This document shows positions 22,590-29,638 of a stretch of DNA of 64,000 nucleotides, one piece after another. Below the pieces are notes generated by a model that searched no databases, had not been told where the DNA came from, and saw only the letters and a program-made list of their open reading frames with translations. The stretch comes from Hyphomicrobiales bacterium (GTDB lineage: Bacteria > Pseudomonadota > Alphaproteobacteria > Rhizobiales > Rhizobiaceae): assembly GCA_900470155.1 (NCBI GenBank), contig UBZT01000009.1, forward strand, positions 1,013,524 to 1,077,523, given 5' to 3'. A program made the position numbers and the translations under genes. Numbering within the stretch: the stretch's first letter is position 1; every line of letters begins with the position of its first letter.

Positions 22590-24086
22590 ATGACCGAACA
22601 GACACCTGAATCCACCCTGTCCTCCGACCCGACCGAAGTGCGTCGCCAGAAACTGGCTTTGCTGCGCGAACAGGTCGGCGACGTCTACCCGGCCCATTTC
22701 CACCGCACGATCACCAATGCGGAACTGGCTGCGAAATACCAGGGCCTTGAGCTGGACACGGAATCAGGCGACATCGTCACCGTGGCCGGGCGCGTCTATT
22801 CCTCGCGCAATTCCGGCATGTTTATCGACCTGCACGATGCCTCGGGCAAGATCCAGATCTTCTCCCACAAGGACACGACACCGGAGGCGGCCCGCAGCCT
22901 CCTGCCGATGATCGACCTTGGCGACATTATCGGCGTCACCGGCATGGTCCGCCGCACCAAGCGCGGCGAGCTGACGATCAACGCCCATGAAATCACCATG
23001 CTGACCAAGACGCTGCTCCCCATGCCGGAGAAGTATCACGGTCTCGCCGATATCGAGCTGCGCTACCGCAAGCGCCATCTCGACATCCTGACCAACGAGG
23101 ATTCGAAGCTCCGCTTCAGGCAGCGTTCGCAGATCGTCTCGGGCATTCGCCGCTTCATGGAAAACGACGGCTTCATGGAAGTCGAGACGCCGATGCTGCA
23201 TTCGGTCTATGGCGGCGCGACGGCCGAGCCGTTCAAGACCCATCACAACACGCTGAAGCTCGACATGTACCTGCGCATCGCGCCGGAACTGTTCCTCAAG
23301 CGCACCCTCGTATCCGGCCTGACCGACAAGGTCTTCGAGGTCAACCGCAACTTCCGCAACGAAGGCGTCTCCACCCGGCACAATCCGGAATTCACCATGA
23401 TGGAGTGCTACTGGGCCTATGCCGACTACGAGGACATCATGGACCTCGTCGAGCGCATGTTCGCCGAACTCGCCGTCAAGATCCACGGCACCACCGAATT
23501 CATGTTCGGCGACAAGGAAATCTCCTTCAAGGGCCCGTTCAAGCGCGTGCCCATGCCTGACGCCGTCAAGGAAGCGACCGGCATCGACTTCCTCGCCATG
23601 AAGACCGACGAGGAAGCCCGCACTGCCGCCAAGGCCGCCGGCTTTGCCATCGAAAAGGACTGGACCTGGGGCGAATGCCTTGCCTTCATCTTCGAAGAGA
23701 AGGTCGAGGGCACGCTGATCCAGCCGAGCCATGTCACGCATTTTCCGAAAGACATCTCGCCCTTTGCCAAGGAAGTGCCGGGCGAACCACGCCTCGTCGA
23801 GCGTTTCGAGACCTATTGCAACGCCTGGGAAATCGGCAACGCCTTCTCCGAACTCAACGATCCGGAAGAACAGCGCAAGCGCATGGTCGAACAGCTGGAG
23901 CAGGCCCATGCCCGCGGCGAAAAGGACAAGCAGCTGGACGAGGAATTCCTCGATGCGATCGACCAGGGCATGCCGCCTGCCGGCGGTCTCGGCATCGGCG
24001 TCGATCGCCTGATCATGCTGTTGACCAACGCCCCGTCGATCCGCGACATCATCCTCTTCCCGGCCCGTCGCGCCAGGGCCGACTGA
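22590..24086 (+). CDS. lysS: Lysyl-tRNA synthetase, class II (498 aa)
   Basis: Charges tRNA-Lys. The N-terminal OB-fold anticodon-binding domain (DIVTVAGRVYSSRNSGMFIDLHDASGKIQIF) comes first. The class II catalytic core follows: motif 1 RRFMENDGFMEVETPML, the LRIAPELFLKR block, motif 2 FEVNRNFRNEGVSTRHNPEFTMMECYWAY, and motif 3 GGLGIGVDRLIMLLT. Length 498 and the OB domain exclude the short EpmA/GenX homologues. Rhizobiales vary between class I and class II LysRS, so the class II type is a useful taxonomic marker. A terminator follows directly. Confidence 0.97.
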   Translation: MTEQTPESTLSSDPTEVRRQKLALLREQVGDVYPAHFHRTITNAELAAKYQGLELDTESGDIVTVAGRVYSSRNSGMFIDLHDASGKIQIFSHKDTTPEAARSLLPMIDLGDIIGVTGMVRRTKRGELTINAHEITMLTKTLLPMPEKYHGLADIELRYRKRHLDILTNEDSKLRFRQRSQIVSGIRRFMENDGFMEVETPMLHSVYGGATAEPFKTHHNTLKLDMYLRIAPELFLKRTLVSGLTDKVFEVNRNFRNEGVSTRHNPEFTMMECYWAYADYEDIMDLVERMFAELAVKIHGTTEFMFGDKEISFKGPFKRVPMPDAVKEATGIDFLAMKTDEEARTAAKAAGFAIEKDWTWGECLAFIFEEKVEGTLIQPSHVTHFPKDISPFAKEVPGEPRLVERFETYCNAWEIGNAFSELNDPEEQRKRMVEQLEQAHARGEKDKQLDEEFLDAIDQGMPPAGGLGIGVDRLIMLLTNAPSIRDIILFPARRARAD

Positions 24087-24161: not shown

Positions 24162-25748
24162 TCAGTGACCGGCCTTGGCCTCTTCCTCGCCATGCACCTT
24201 GGCCTTTGGCGGCAGGATAGCCTCTTCCTCGGCCGGTGCGGCAGGCGCATGTGACGCATCCGCCTTTTCCCCATGCTCGACTTGAGTCGACGCGGGCTGG
24301 TCATGTGTTTCCACGGCCGCACCCTCTACTGCGGCGGCAGCGCCATGCCCATCGTCAGCCCCGGCGGCGATCGGCTTGGCCCGCATCTTGGCCAGCCAGT
24401 CTGCGCCGTCATGCTTGCCGCCCTCTGCCTGTTCGCCAACGGGCGCGACCTGATTTTCGGCCGGCTTCGGCCACTTCTTCTTTGCAACCTCATCGGCTTC
24501 CGAGACGGCGGCGCCCTCCTCGGACGCTGCCTCTTCCGGTGCTGCCCCATCTCCAAGGCCGACCATACCCTTCAACGAAGACAACCAGCCCTGCTCTTCA
24601 GCCACCGCGACATCTGCACCGTGCGCCGCATCGGTGGCCACAGGCGAATGACCGTCAGCCGCCTCCGGCGCAGCGACGACAGGCTCTCCAGCGGGTGCAT
24701 GATCCTCGACCGCGGCGCCATGCGCCTCAACCGCCGCGCCATGGCCTTCGCCCTCGGCAGGCGCATGACCGGCGGCGGCTTCTCCATGTCCGGCGGCCTC
24801 TCCATGATCGGCCGGCGCACCGTGTTCGCTCGCAACAACCTCATCTTCGGCCGGCGCATCGTGGCCCGCGGCGTCCGGAGCATGCGCCGCCGCTTCCGGC
24901 TCATCACTGCCGCCAAGGCCGACCATGCCCAGGATAGAGCCCATCCAGCCCTTGCTTTCCTCTGCCCCATGCTCGGCAACAGGAACCGCCTCGCCGTGGC
25001 CTTCAGCCGGTGCCTCCCCATGACCTTCAGCCGGCGCTTCGCCGTGCGCATCTGCCGGGGCCGCCCCATGCGCATCGGCAGGCGCTTCGCCATGGCCGCT
25101 GGCGGGTGCTTCGCCATGTCCGGCAGGCGCCTCTCCATGTCCGGCCGGTGCCGCGCCATGGGCGCCTTCCGGCAGCACCACCTCCGGTTTCAGGCAATCG
25201 GTCGTGTCATCGAGCTTGGCAACAAGCGCTTCGATATCGGCATTGATCATGTCGATACGCTCGCCGAAGAACTGACCGCTCTCATTGGCAGCCTTGTCGA
25301 CATAGCGGGCGGTATACACCTGCGCCGAGGCCTCTTCGGGCACGCGGCTCGGATCGGGAATGAAGATCACGTCGGCACCGACGGCGCGGCCGCGCATGTC
25401 GGCGCGATCCTTCGGTCCCTTGGTATCGAGCACGACAACCTGGACCAGATCGGCCTTTTCATGCTCATGCAGGCTTTTCGCCACGCGAAGTGCTGTCTTG
25501 ACCCGTGTCAGGCCGTCGCCGGGCTCGTCGGTGGTGATGTATTTGCGGATCCAGAAGTGATCCTTCTTGTGGATCTCGACGGTTTTGACCTCGGTGCATT
25601 CCAGCCCGTTCAGCTCCGCATAGGACGGGCCCAGCAAAGTATCGGCGCCGATGAACACGGCAGCAGCACCCGTTCCGCCACACAGGACAAGAACACCGCC
25701 GAAGATCAGCACGAGCTTGCGCGAAATATGGATCTTCGGACCCTTCAC
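24162..25748 (-). CDS. Membrane-anchored His/Ala/Gly/Glu-rich low-complexity protein (about 528 aa)
   Basis: I do not recognise a named family. GTG 25746-25748 is chosen because GGAG lies 8 nt upstream; an ATG at 25803-25805 would add 19 residues but lacks a good ribosome site. A membrane anchor (KLVLIFGGVLVLCGGTGAAAVFIG) is followed by a folded-looking domain of about 150 residues (GLECTEVKTVEIHKKDHFWIR; ADLVQVVVLDTKGPKDRADM; GADVIFIPDPSRVPEEAS). The remaining 330 or so residues are low complexity, with many HGEAPA/HGAAPA repeats and two copies of a GW(M/L)(G/S)S(I/L)xGMVGLG motif. The tail would lie in the periplasm. High His content and a divergent position to sitABCD suggest metal binding, which is inference. 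Confidence 0.75.
   Translation of the reverse strand: MKGPKIHISRKLVLIFGGVLVLCGGTGAAAVFIGADTLLGPSYAELNGLECTEVKTVEIHKKDHFWIRKYITTDEPGDGLTRVKTALRVAKSLHEHEKADLVQVVVLDTKGPKDRADMRGRAVGADVIFIPDPSRVPEEASAQVYTARYVDKAANESGQFFGERIDMINADIEALVAKLDDTTDCLKPEVVLPEGAHGAAPAGHGEAPAGHGEAPASGHGEAPADAHGAAPADAHGEAPAEGHGEAPAEGHGEAVPVAEHGAEESKGWMGSILGMVGLGGSDEPEAAAHAPDAAGHDAPAEDEVVASEHGAPADHGEAAGHGEAAAGHAPAEGEGHGAAVEAHGAAVEDHAPAGEPVVAAPEAADGHSPVATDAAHGADVAVAEEQGWLSSLKGMVGLGDGAAPEEAASEEGAAVSEADEVAKKKWPKPAENQVAPVGEQAEGGKHDGADWLAKMRAKPIAAGADDGHGAAAAVEGAAVETHDQPASTQVEHGEKADASHAPAAPAEEEAILPPKAKVHGEEEAKAGH
24300..25190 (-). repeat. Degenerate HGEAPA-coding tandem repeats inside the His-rich gene
   Basis: Within the coding sequence, short units encoding HGEAPA, HGAAPA, GHGEA and similar recur tens of times, densest around 24990-25170. 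A GW...GMVGLG module occurs twice (around 24555-24600 and 24920-24965) as spaced hydrophobic islands. Unit number is likely variable between strains. Confidence 0.7.
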
Positions 25749-25930
25749 GCTGTGAACTCCGCCATGACACCGCCCCGCTGTTTTACGCAATACTTGCGCC
25801 ACCATATGAGATCGTTCTTGCGGAAACTTTAACTTGCCCCCGACAATGCCGCACAACGGCCTGGCGGCAGCGAAAATCCCGAGGTGGAAGGAGTTTCCCG
25901 CCAAGAGTGGCTTCTTTTTGCGAATGAGTT

Positions 25931-25986
25931 GCAAATGCATTGACAAAGCAGATTTGCGCTATAGGTTTTAATGAGAATTATTCGCA
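25931..25986. promoter_or_regulatory. Candidate Fur/Mur-type control region of sitABCD
   Basis: Two dyads lie upstream of sitA. GCAAAT (25931-25936) and ATTTGC (25952-25957) are inverted around 15 bp and bracket a TTGACA hexamer (25940-25945). TGAGAAT-T-ATTCGCA (25972-25986) is a 7-bp inverted repeat with one mismatch and resembles Fur-family sites. In rhizobia sitABCD is known to be repressed by the Fur homologue Mur in response to manganese. Site assignment is inference. Confidence 0.55.
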
Positions 25987-26003: not shown

Positions 26004-26903
26004 ATGCTGCCAAGACTAGCCTGCCTCGTCGGAAGTTCGCTGCTCGCGGCGCTGACCCTTCTGCCGCTCCCGGCCTTCGCCGCCGAAAAGCCCAAGGTCG
26101 TCACCACATTCACCGTGATCGCCGACATCGCCCGCAATGTCGCCGGCGACGCAGCCACCGTCGAAAGCATCACCAAACCCGGTGCCGAGATCCACGGCTA
26201 TCAGCCGACGCCGCGCGACATCCTGAAAGCCAGCGACGCCAATCTCGTCCTGTGGAACGGTCTCAATCTCGAAACCTGGTTTGAAAAATTCCTCGCCAAT
26301 CTCGGCGATGTGCCCAATGTCGTGGTCAGCGACGGCGTGGCGCCGATGAGCATTGCCGGCGGTGCCTATGACGGCAAGCCCAATCCGCATGCCTGGATGT
26401 CGCCCGACAATGCGCTGATCTATGTCGAGAACATCCGCAAGGCACTGACCGGGATCGACCCCGACCATGCCGCCGTCTATGCCGCCAATGCCGCCGCCTA
26501 TTCGGACAAGATCAAGGCCGAGATCGCGCCGATGAAGGCGCAGATCGCAGCCCTGCCCGAAAACGAGCGCTGGCTGGTGACGAGCGAAGGCGCCTTCTCC
26601 TATCTCGCCCGCGATCTCGGCCTGAAGGAACTCTATCTCTGGCCGATCAATGCCGACAGTCAGGGCACCCCCCAGCAGGTCAAGGCGGTGATCGATGCGG
26701 TGACCGAAAACAAGATCCGCGTCGTCTTTTCCGAAAGCACCGTGTCCGACAAGCCGGCCAAGCAGGTCGCGGCCGAAACCGGGGTGAACTACGGCGGTGT
26801 GCTCTACGTGGATTCGCTCAGCACCGAGGACGGCCCGGTTCCGACCTATATCGATCTCCTCAAGGTCACCGTCTCGACCATTGTCAAGGGACTTGAAGGA
26901 TGA
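26004..26903 (+). CDS. sitA: Manganese/iron ABC transporter substrate-binding protein (299 aa)
   Basis: Cluster 9 (ZnuA/SitA/PsaA type) periplasmic metal-binding protein. The signal peptide [20 protein letters not shown]...AFA is obvious. The four metal ligands of Mn/Fe-type members are visible: His64 ([11 protein letters not shown]), His129 (NPHAWMSP), Glu195 (TSEGAFSYL) and Asp270 (VDSLS). There is no His-rich loop as in ZnuA, which favours Mn/Fe over Zn. The open frame extends 33 bp upstream through the operator-like dyad; ATG 26004 with GGAG 7 nt before is preferred. First gene of sitABCD. Confidence 0.94.
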
Positions 26904-27913
26904 TCATGGGTTCAAGCCAGCGCCAGGCCAGATCGCGCCAGTCCAGCCTGAAAACCGTTCACGCTCCAGGGCAGGCACCGGTGCAGGCGCCTGAATTCGC
27001 CGGCGTCCAGGGCATCGTCGCCGAAGACGTCACCGTCACCTATCGCAACGGCCACACGGCCCTGCGCCATGCAAGCTTCGCCATCCCCACCGGCACGATC
27101 ACCGCACTTGTCGGCGTCAACGGCGCCGGAAAATCCACCCTGTTCAAGGCGATCATGGGCTTCGTGCCCGTGGCCGGCGGCCAGATCCGGGTCCTCGGCA
27201 TGAGCGTGCATGATGCGCTGGCCAAAAACCTGATCGCCTATGTGCCCCAGGCCGAAGAGGTCGACTGGAACTTCCCGGTTCTGGTCGAGGACGTGGTGAT
27301 GATGGGCCGCTATGGCCACATGAATTTCCTCCGCATCCCCTCGAAGAACGACCGCCGCCTGGTTGACGAGGCATTGGCGCGCGTCGGCATGGGCGACTAT
27401 CGCAAGCGCCAGATCGGCGAACTGTCCGGCGGCCAGCGCAAGCGTGTCTTCCTCGCCCGTGCGCTTGCCCAAGAAGGCCAGGTGATCCTGCTCGATGAGC
27501 CGTTTACCGGCGTCGATGTCACCACCGAGGAGCAGATCATCACGCTGATGCGCGACCTGCGCGCCGAAGGCCGCGTCATGCTCGTCTCGACCCACAATCT
27601 CGGCAGCGTGCCCGACTTCTGCGACCGCACCATTTTCGTCAAGGGCACGGTCCTGGCCGCGGGAACGACGGCGGAAACCTTCACCGAGGACAATCTCAAG
27701 GCAGCCTTCGGCGGCGCCCTGCGCCATTTTGTCCTCTCCGGCCCCGACCTGCACGACGATGCCGACGGCCGCGAGGTCAAGGTGATCACCGACGACGAGC
27801 GCCCCTTCGTCATCTACGGCGCGCCTGCCACTGCCCCGGCGGCAAAATCACCGGCACCTGCGCTTGAGCCGGCAGACGTTCTGGAAAAGGCTGATGATGA
27901 CCGTCCTGCTTGA
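26900..27913 (+). CDS. sitB: Manganese/iron ABC transporter ATP-binding protein (337 aa)
   Basis: ATPase energising the Sit importer. Walker A is GVNGAGKST, signature LSGGQRKR, Walker [13 protein letters not shown], and the H-loop STHNLGSV. It starts at ATG 26900 overlapping the sitA stop (ATGA); an in-frame ATG at 26906 is an alternative. The protein is longer than usual SitB (about 250-300 aa), with a Gln/Arg/Ala-rich leader of about 37 residues and a Pro/Ala-rich tail of about 45 residues after the ATPase domain. The tail overlaps the start of sitC. Confidence 0.94.
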
Positions 27914-28799
27914 GCCTTTCACCTATGACTACATGCGCAATGCGATCTTCGTCAGCGCCCTCGTCGGTGGCGTCTGCGGCTTCCTGTCGGCCTATCTCAT
28001 GCTCAAGGGCTGGTCGCTGATCGGCGATGCGCTCTCGCATGCCATCGTGCCGGGCGTCGCCGGCGCCTATATGCTCGGCCTGCCCTTTGCCTTCGGCGCC
28101 TTTCTCTCCGGCGGTCTGGCAGCGCTCGCCATCCTCTTCCTCAACCAGCGCACCAAGCTCAAGGAAGATGCGATCATCGGTCTGATCTTCACCTCCTTCT
28201 TCGGCCTCGGCCTGTTCATGGTGTCGATCTCGCCCGTCTCGATCGACATCAAGACCATCGTGCTCGGCAATATCCTCGCCATCACCCCGGCCGACACGCT
28301 GCAGCTTGTCCTGATCGGCGGCATCAGCCTCGTGATCCTGGCGCTGAAGTGGAAGGACCTGATGGTCGCCTTCTTCGACGAAAACCACGCCCGGTCCATC
28401 GGCCTGAAACCGGAGCGTCTGAAGGTGATCTTCTTCACCCTGCTCGCCGCCTCGACCGTTGCCGCCATGCAGACCGTCGGCGCATTCCTCGTCATCGCCA
28501 TGGTCGTCACCCCGGGCGCCACCGCCTATCTGCTGACCGATCGCTTCCAGCGGCTGATCCTGATGGCGCTCGCCATCGGCGCCGGCACCAGTTTCATCGG
28601 CGCATACCTCAGCTACTTCCTCGATGGCGCGACCGGCGGCGTCATCGTCGTGCTGCAGTCGCTGATTTTTGTCGCGGCCTTCCTGTTTGCACCCAAACAC
28701 GGCCTGTTCGCCGCCCGCCGTCGTGCCAAACTTGCGCTGGAACCCCTTGCCCCAGAACCTCTTGCAGCGGGACCCCGGACACTGGAGCCAGTCGCATGA
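27894..28799 (+). CDS. sitC: Manganese/iron ABC transporter permease (301 aa)
   Basis: ABC-3 family permease with about 8 helices. It has [28 protein letters not shown] (conserved family block) and the ATPase-contact loop [21 protein letters not shown]. The start is one of two adjacent ATGs (27894, 27897) with GGAAAAGG upstream, overlapping the end of sitB by about 20 bp, which suggests translational coupling. The C-terminus has a Pro/Ala/Leu-rich extension ([19 protein letters not shown]). Confidence 0.94.
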
Positions 28800-29638
28800 C
28801 CGAGACCCTCGAACTGCTGATCCTGCCCTTCCAGCTGCCTTTTATGCAGACGGCGTTCGTCATCACGCTGATGATCGCAATCCCCATGGCCTTGCTCTCC
28901 TGCTTCCTCGTCCTCAAAGGCTGGTCGCTGATGGGCGATGCGGTCTCCCATGCCGTGTTGCCCGGCATCGTCATCGCCTATATCGCCGGCATCCCCCTGG
29001 CGATCGGCGCCTTCATCGCCGGCCTCGCCTGCGCGCTGATGACCGGCTACGTCAAGGAAAACAGCCGCATCAAGGAAGACACGGTGCTCGGCATCGTCTT
29101 CTCCGGCATGTTTGGTCTGGGGCTCGTGCTTTACGTCAATGTCGAGAGCAGCGTGCATCTCGACCACATCCTGTTCGGCGACATGCTCGGCATTCTGCCG
29201 TCCGACCTGATCGAAACCGGCCTGATCGCACTGGCGGCCACCGCCTTCCTCGTTCTGCTGCGCAAGGATCTGCTCGCCCATGCTTTCGATCCGCAGCATG
29301 CCCGCGCCATCGGCCTGTCGGTACGGCTTTTGCACTATGGCCAACTGGCGGTTCTGTCGCTGGTCGTCGTCGGCGCCCTGAAAGCGGTCGGCATCATTCT
29401 CTCGGTTGCCATGCTGGTGACACCCGGCGCGATCGCCTTCCTGATCACAAGGCGCTTCCAGTCTATGCTGGTCGCCGCCGTCTCGGTCGCCGTTCTGGCA
29501 TCGCTGATCGGCATCTATCTGAGCTTTTTCCTCGACAGCGCGCCGGCACCGACCATCGTCCTGGTGATGAGCTCGATGTTCGTGCTTGTCTTCATCATCG
29601 GCGCCTTTCGCAACCGACGGACACAGGCAACGCTGTAG
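28796..29638 (+). CDS. sitD: Manganese/iron ABC transporter permease (280 aa)
   Basis: Second ABC-3 permease of the Sit system, paralogous to SitC (FLVLKGWSLMGDAVSHAVLPGIVIAYIAG; FDPQHARAIGLSVRLLHYG). The ATG at 28796 overlaps the sitC stop as ATGA. A much longer open frame reading upstream is an out-of-family artefact over sitC. It ends the operon; the next gene is convergent with 48 bp between them. Confidence 0.94.
   Translation: MTETLELLILPFQLPFMQTAFVITLMIAIPMALLSCFLVLKGWSLMGDAVSHAVLPGIVIAYIAGIPLAIGAFIAGLACALMTGYVKENSRIKEDTVLGIVFSGMFGLGLVLYVNVESSVHLDHILFGDMLGILPSDLIETGLIALAATAFLVLLRKDLLAHAFDPQHARAIGLSVRLLHYGQLAVLSLVVVGALKAVGIILSVAMLVTPGAIAFLITRRFQSMLVAAVSVAVLASLIGIYLSFFLDSAPAPTIVLVMSSMFVLVFIIGAFRNRRTQATL

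Follow-up and report, generated by a model that had tools for sequence, protein, structure and literature searches.

Does a histidine-rich protein that is encoded next to a manganese and iron importer take part in the supply of these metals? This question is raised by a gene of a Hyphomicrobiales bacterium of the Rhizobiaceae, located in a stretch of 64,000 nucleotides of contig UBZT01000009.1 that was analysed as a whole (the window). The first-pass annotation described a membrane-anchored protein, here called X, that carries HGEAPA-like repeats and two GMVGLG islands and shares its upstream region with sitABCD, and proposed that X is linked to manganese or iron supply.

A conserved domain followed by a variable tail

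X is composed of a hydrophobic segment, a domain of about 150 aa with two invariant cysteines and a tail of 338 aa rich in Ala, Gly, Glu, Pro and His. The following features were assigned:

24162–25748, − strand: protein X, 528 aa, GTG start at 25748, stop at 24162–24164 (open frame and conserved N-terminal domain)
25179–25748, − strand: N-terminal family domain, residues 1–190 (alignment of eight members and profile matches)
25647–25715, − strand: hydrophobic segment, residues 12–34, probable membrane anchor (read from sequence)
24165–25178, − strand: low-complexity acidic Ala/Gly/Glu/Pro/His tail, residues 191–528, 338 aa (composition)
24906–24968, − strand: hydrophobic island 1, KGWMGSILGMVGLGG (island profile A4, E 1.7e-7)
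24546–24602, − strand: hydrophobic island 2, QGWLSSLKGMVGLGD (island profile A4, E 2.0e-6)

A search of 99 other genomes found homologues of the N-terminal 191 aa in 57, and X is therefore a real gene; the open frame with a long tail and two islands was confirmed as first observed. In an alignment of eight diverse members, G27, A29, A30 and G34 are invariant, as are C51 and C185 (8/8), which may form a disulfide. The claim of membrane anchoring can be kept in a weaker form: the K/R-rich start and the hydrophobic stretch at about residues 12–34, both seen in the sequence only, are probably a membrane anchor, with a cleaved signal peptide as a possible alternative.

Counting its own, 58 of 100 genomes had a match to the N-terminal 191 aa, and every one of them belongs to the genus code of the window; a set of 40 genomes, each from a different other family of the order, gave none. 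With a profile made from the N-terminal domains of eight diverse members, X was detected in 127 of 394 Rhizobiaceae genomes (27 of 106 genus codes) and, among 289 genomes sampled across the class, in none besides that of the window; both draws of genomes were limited to 90% completeness. Among named records, the nearest found were Rhizobium sp. 18065 (96% over the domain) and PDO1-076 (95%).

That the family had not been recognised is in line with the database searches. No Pfam or NCBIfam family passed its curated cut-off for X, and the eight members gave a single weak Pfam match (0.077). A profile search of PDB sequences yielded one match at E 0.54, and no relative was found in viral contigs. 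The AlphaFold2 model of X with six homologues is a poor model of the domain (mean pLDDT 43.9), and Foldseek returned nothing at E 0.001 or below with it; the best match, a pyrophosphatase (0.051), was not used as a fold assignment. The few terms tried in the open-access literature gave no description of X. CenR/srlA was rejected as a counterpart, as the consulted part of PMC9561847 concerns another gene and another repeat, and the passage found on RL1763 gave no link to X.

To compare neighbourhoods, 110 loci of more than 12 kb were examined. One was dropped as a duplicate (L037, of L067), and the remaining 109 comprise 103 core loci and six paralogues that were set apart (L045, L046, L059–L061 and L131). 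The core set combines 42 loci taken from the 57 matching relatives of the same genus (not counting the window's own copy), 59 from the 119 matching genomes of other genera (about two for each genus code; code g89, which has a weak fragment, was left out) and two named records, L043 from Shinella and L044 from S. meliloti. Core loci were picked for spread and are not a random sample, and near relatives within the set are not independent.

Genomic neighbours and the upstream region of X

The genes next to X in the window are:

22590–24086, + strand: lysS, convergent with X (TIGR00499)
26004–26903, + strand: sitA, start at about 26004, metal ABC substrate-binding protein (PF01297, 1.3e-87; no NCBIfam cut-off passed)
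26900–27913, + strand: sitB, Mn/Fe ABC ATPase (NF011630, 448 bits against an equivalog cut-off of 393)
27864–28799, + strand: sitC, permease, start uncertain (PF00950)
28796–29638, + strand: sitD, permease (PF00950)

X is indeed divergent from an Mn/Fe importer, with sitA running from about 26004 on the plus strand and sitB passing its equivalog cut-off. The first-pass annotation had suggested examining the conservation of this pair and had named homologues unlinked to sit beforehand as one outcome that would speak against its proposal. Of the 103 core loci, 51 keep the divergent pair; these fall into 12 of the 26 genus codes covered, and the other 52 are not linked to sit. By neighbour, 49 loci have both sit and lysS, two have sit only and 52 have lysS only. 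As lysS is convergent with X at a distance of up to 7 kb in 101 of the 103 loci, in some with extra DNA in between, compared to 51 for sit, it is the steadier neighbour. On a tree, sit adjacency required 9 changes compared to 36 in shuffles, and the association is old and clustered.

We also searched for SitA in 50 of the 51 X genomes without adjacent sit (G207 was left out). A SitA of 60–72% identity is encoded elsewhere in 21 of these genomes, 14 contain only a relative of 33–38%, and in 15, including G055 with a sitA fragment, there was no SitA at E 1e-40 or below. A SitA of at least 60% identity is thus missing from 29 of the 50 genomes. Co-occurrence does not identify X as a dedicated accessory of SitABCD, with 52 of 103 loci unlinked and 29 of 50 genomes lacking a close SitA.

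In one locus (L052), X stands beside a sitA fragment (query residues 4–59) and sitB–D are not adjacent, which looks like in-place decay of the importer. For the other non-sit loci, loss of sit and sit never having arrived may both fit the counts. In the window, EamA follows sitD; in eight non-sit loci it is found right next to X, and the LysR gene that comes after EamA is so placed in three. The other upstream genes of the non-sit loci look mixed (longest frames read by eye, some of them shadow frames). Upstream of X in L076, at 337–2101 nt, a translation reads as an ArsA-type ATPase, with EamA and LysR further out.

Three elements were assigned between X and sitA:

25801–25832, − strand: promoter-like element of X, TTAARnnTTCnnnAA (25818–25832) and TAnnnT (25801–25806), conserved upstream of X
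25929–25946, + strand: near-palindrome TTGCAAATGCATTGACAA, presumed Mur-type operator of sitA (half-site pattern; putative Mur assignment)
25745–25765, − strand: six-codon leader ORF, MAEFTA and a stop that overlaps the X start (GTGA); exactly six codons in 54 of 103 core loci

The X box was found 66–106 nt from the start of X in 47 of 51 sit loci and in 40 of 52 non-sit loci, compared to a background of 4.3% of shuffles with a score of at least 11; its consensus was drawn from the same loci, and part of this agreement is therefore built in. The complete box, with TAnnnT, occurs once in the genome, at X. When the −10 part was omitted, three genomic sites were found compared to eight for a reversed control, and hence no X-box regulon was found in this genome.

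Half-sites of the TTGCRAW type lie in the window at 25918, 25929 and 25981, ahead of the sitA start, the nearest lying 85–96 nt further out than the X box. In the 420 bp ahead of X, sit loci contain 3.8 such half-sites (0.16 when shuffled), whereas loci without sit contain 0.17 (0.14 when shuffled) and show no enrichment above the shuffled level. The promoter box of X is separate from the presumed sit operator and is conserved with or without sit. Rhizobial sitABCD is under the control of Mur according to the consulted part of PMC5575495, and the half-sites in the window are candidate Mur boxes; the parts of PMC5575495 and PMC9409073 that were consulted do not give the Mur box sequence.

An overlapping leader ORF of any length precedes X in 68 of the 103 core loci. 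Its peptide varies between loci, and the length of six codons recurs. Among 407 control starts from the same loci (gltX, lysS and sitA–D), two had a six-codon leader and 25 any leader, in a scan of the three nearest starts within 60 nt, compared to all starts within 15 nt for X. A tetramer resembling a ribosome site precedes the leader in 41 of the 54 six-codon loci and occurs in 295 of 2530 windows further upstream; the leader in the analysed window has none of these tetramers. The leader may be translated and coupled to X.

Repeats and hydrophobic islands of the tail

The tail of X contains 27 His and has a net charge of −51 by composition, with His counted as neutral. The more than 300 residues of HGEAPA-like repeats that had been reported correspond to this 338-aa tail, in which strong tandem repeats of the HGEAPA type span only about 58 codons (24987–25161, period 24/48 bp). 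Weaker arrays are present at 24698–24818, and the rest is degenerate and of low complexity. Tail length ranges from 6 to 409 aa in the core loci. Several orthologues have almost no tail, for instance that of S. meliloti (206 aa), and the tail can therefore not be the core function of X.

Both reported GMVGLG islands are present, with the cores SILGMVGLGG and SLKGMVGLGD. The island is an amphipathic motif of about 14 residues with a consensus of about G-[WFL]-h-x-S-h-x-x-[ML]-[VI]-[FGL]-G, and mostly one to three copies occur per tail. A profile was built from ten training tails and tested on 63 held-out tails, with a domain E of 0.001 as the threshold. It matched 51 of the 63 tails compared to 0 of 1460 shuffles, and missed 12 (L049, L101–L103, L117, L128, L130, L132, L135 and L140–L142). 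By composition alone, a hydrophobic island is found in 67 of 73 tails of at least 80 aa and in 8.6% of shuffles, although not all of these islands are the profile motif. Seven tails contain three or fewer His: the profile motif is present in L093, L094, L119, L120 and L125 but not in L140 and L142, which are among the missed tails and have few or no His. Since L093 and L119 belonged to the training set, the held-out count is three of five. The island is a better conserved feature of the tail than its His. When the genome itself was scanned with the profile, the two X copies and one weak match (E 0.013, L157) were obtained; the latter was judged to be due to chance, its frame being read as a shadow frame.

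Possible roles of X

The reading that we tentatively prefer, at slightly less than an even chance, is that X is anchored in the membrane, lies in the periplasm and carries a disordered arm for docking. The single N-terminal membrane segment would anchor a small periplasmic domain held by the two invariant cysteines, and the acidic, fast-changing tail, predicted to be disordered, would hang from this domain as a flexible arm. The A/G/P/E/H repeats would then serve as a spacer, while the islands could dock on a partner protein or on the membrane surface, and the isolated His of GHGE may tune the charge of the tail with pH rather than hold metal. In such a scheme sitABCD would often lie next to X under an operator of its own, and X, with its own promoter, would persist in places where sit is missing or has decayed.

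Periplasmic tethers of the TolA/TonB type have an N-terminal membrane anchor and a long low-complexity arm. As far as can be read from its sequence, X may resemble them in its probable anchor and its arm. It differs in that a putatively folded domain precedes the arm and that short islands would have to do the docking. A C-terminal folded domain was not seen in X, the tail reading as low-complexity to its end, with no Pfam match. The tether reading is weakened by the old and clustered sit adjacency, by paralogues near Nramp genes and by the higher His content in sit loci (in a comparison that ignores kinship). The tails missed by the profile (12 of 63), the almost tailless orthologues, the poor domain model and the lack of a significant fold match also count against it. 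A more specific version, in which X is a family-specific sticker-and-spacer arm (repeated amphipathic docking motifs on a disordered, His-tuned acidic chain, an inner-membrane anchor and a conserved, translated hexapeptide leader) that tethers or scaffolds the Rhizobiaceae envelope in response to acid, appears unlikely.

The tail may also be a sticker-and-spacer chain that responds to pH or stress: protonation of the isolated His below about pH 6 would let islands of several chains come together or attach to the membrane, and X would thereby report on or reinforce the envelope in acid. The charge of −51 with 27 spaced His is consistent with this, as are the similar balance in the non-sit tails L143, L137 and L126 and the islands, which are hydrophobic against the polar rest of the tail. 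However, islands are also found in tails with no or few His (L093, L094 and L119), and pH gating can therefore not be general. We regard this explanation as improbable.

The explanation closest to the first-pass proposal is that X buffers manganese, iron or another metal in the periplasm, or passes it to SitA, via its His-rich tail. It would draw on the divergent sitABCD found at 51 of 103 core loci, two of them with no lysS nearby, and on the Nramp genes near paralogues. The median His content of tails of at least 100 aa is 7.9% when sit-linked (n = 38) and 5.6% when not (n = 31); for core loci the medians are 8.3% and 5.9% (p 0.0017 in a plain test that ignores kinship). On the other hand, His-rich tails showed no association with sit on a quick tree with long branches: seven supported independent pairs went the same way in 1.3, the opposite way in 1.8 and showed no difference in 3.9 cases on average, informative pairs so few that independence cannot be proven. 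Moreover, sit-linked L140 has only three His in a tail of 272 aa, and sit-linked L127 has a tail of 10 aa with no His.

The arrangement of the His also differs from that expected for a metal buffer. Known His-rich buffers and chaperones, such as the His loops of ZnuA, HypB, SlyD and Hpn, cluster their His as HH or HxH. X shares with them a flexible segment with a raised His content, encoded here close to a metal transporter gene. However, its His hardly ever stand close together, and X persists in genomes that lack the transporter. In 60 pooled tails with at least eight His, HH was seen twice, HxH never and HxxH six times, compared to about 102 expected for each, whereas HGE was seen 268 times compared to 25 expected. 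All three close spacings are absent from the tail of X in the window. The repeat has one His per unit, and the near-absence of close pairs may follow from the repeat itself. The tails do not show the clustering (HH, HxH, HxxH) of metal buffers; their His are isolated and form no classical chelating cluster. Together with the 29 of 50 non-adjacent genomes without a close SitA and the unenriched half-sites upstream of X where sit is absent, this gave no support for the proposed link to Mn/Fe supply, and we consider a metal-buffering role quite unlikely. A His-rich composition and a metal-transporter neighbour are not sufficient to infer metal handling.

It is also quite doubtful that only the folded N-terminal domain matters and that the tail has expanded through its repeats almost neutrally and drifts in length and composition, as the tandem DNA repeats, the range of 6 to 409 aa and the nearly tailless S. 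meliloti and other orthologues might suggest, since a drifting tail should lose its islands and these recur in 51 of 63 held-out tails compared to 0 of 1460 shuffles.

The conserved docking-like motif, the promoter box and the overlapping mini-ORF are features of an unnamed family that is tied to lysS and occurs in 27 genus codes of one family. They offer direct handles on the role of X in the envelope of plant-associated bacteria.

At the level of the X domain a metal role is conceivable because of the mobile-element paralogues (L045, L046, L059–L061 and L152–L154), which share the N-terminal domain with about 35–43% identity and lie near Nramp in five of six inspected loci (L045, L046, L059, L152 and L154; Nramp was not seen near L153). 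A heavy-metal ATPase and PCuAC were found near three of the six (L045, L046 and L059, the neighbours of L059 being named by reading). In contrast to X, the five paralogues that were measured (L045, L046 and L059–L061) have no tail and are 194–198 aa long; they form one supported group in the tree and were therefore counted as one observation. Some mobile-element paralogues are also near cell-wall enzymes. The sixth locus set apart from the core, L131, is a second, diverged X copy on another contig of genome G450, with neither lysS nor sit found within 9 kb.
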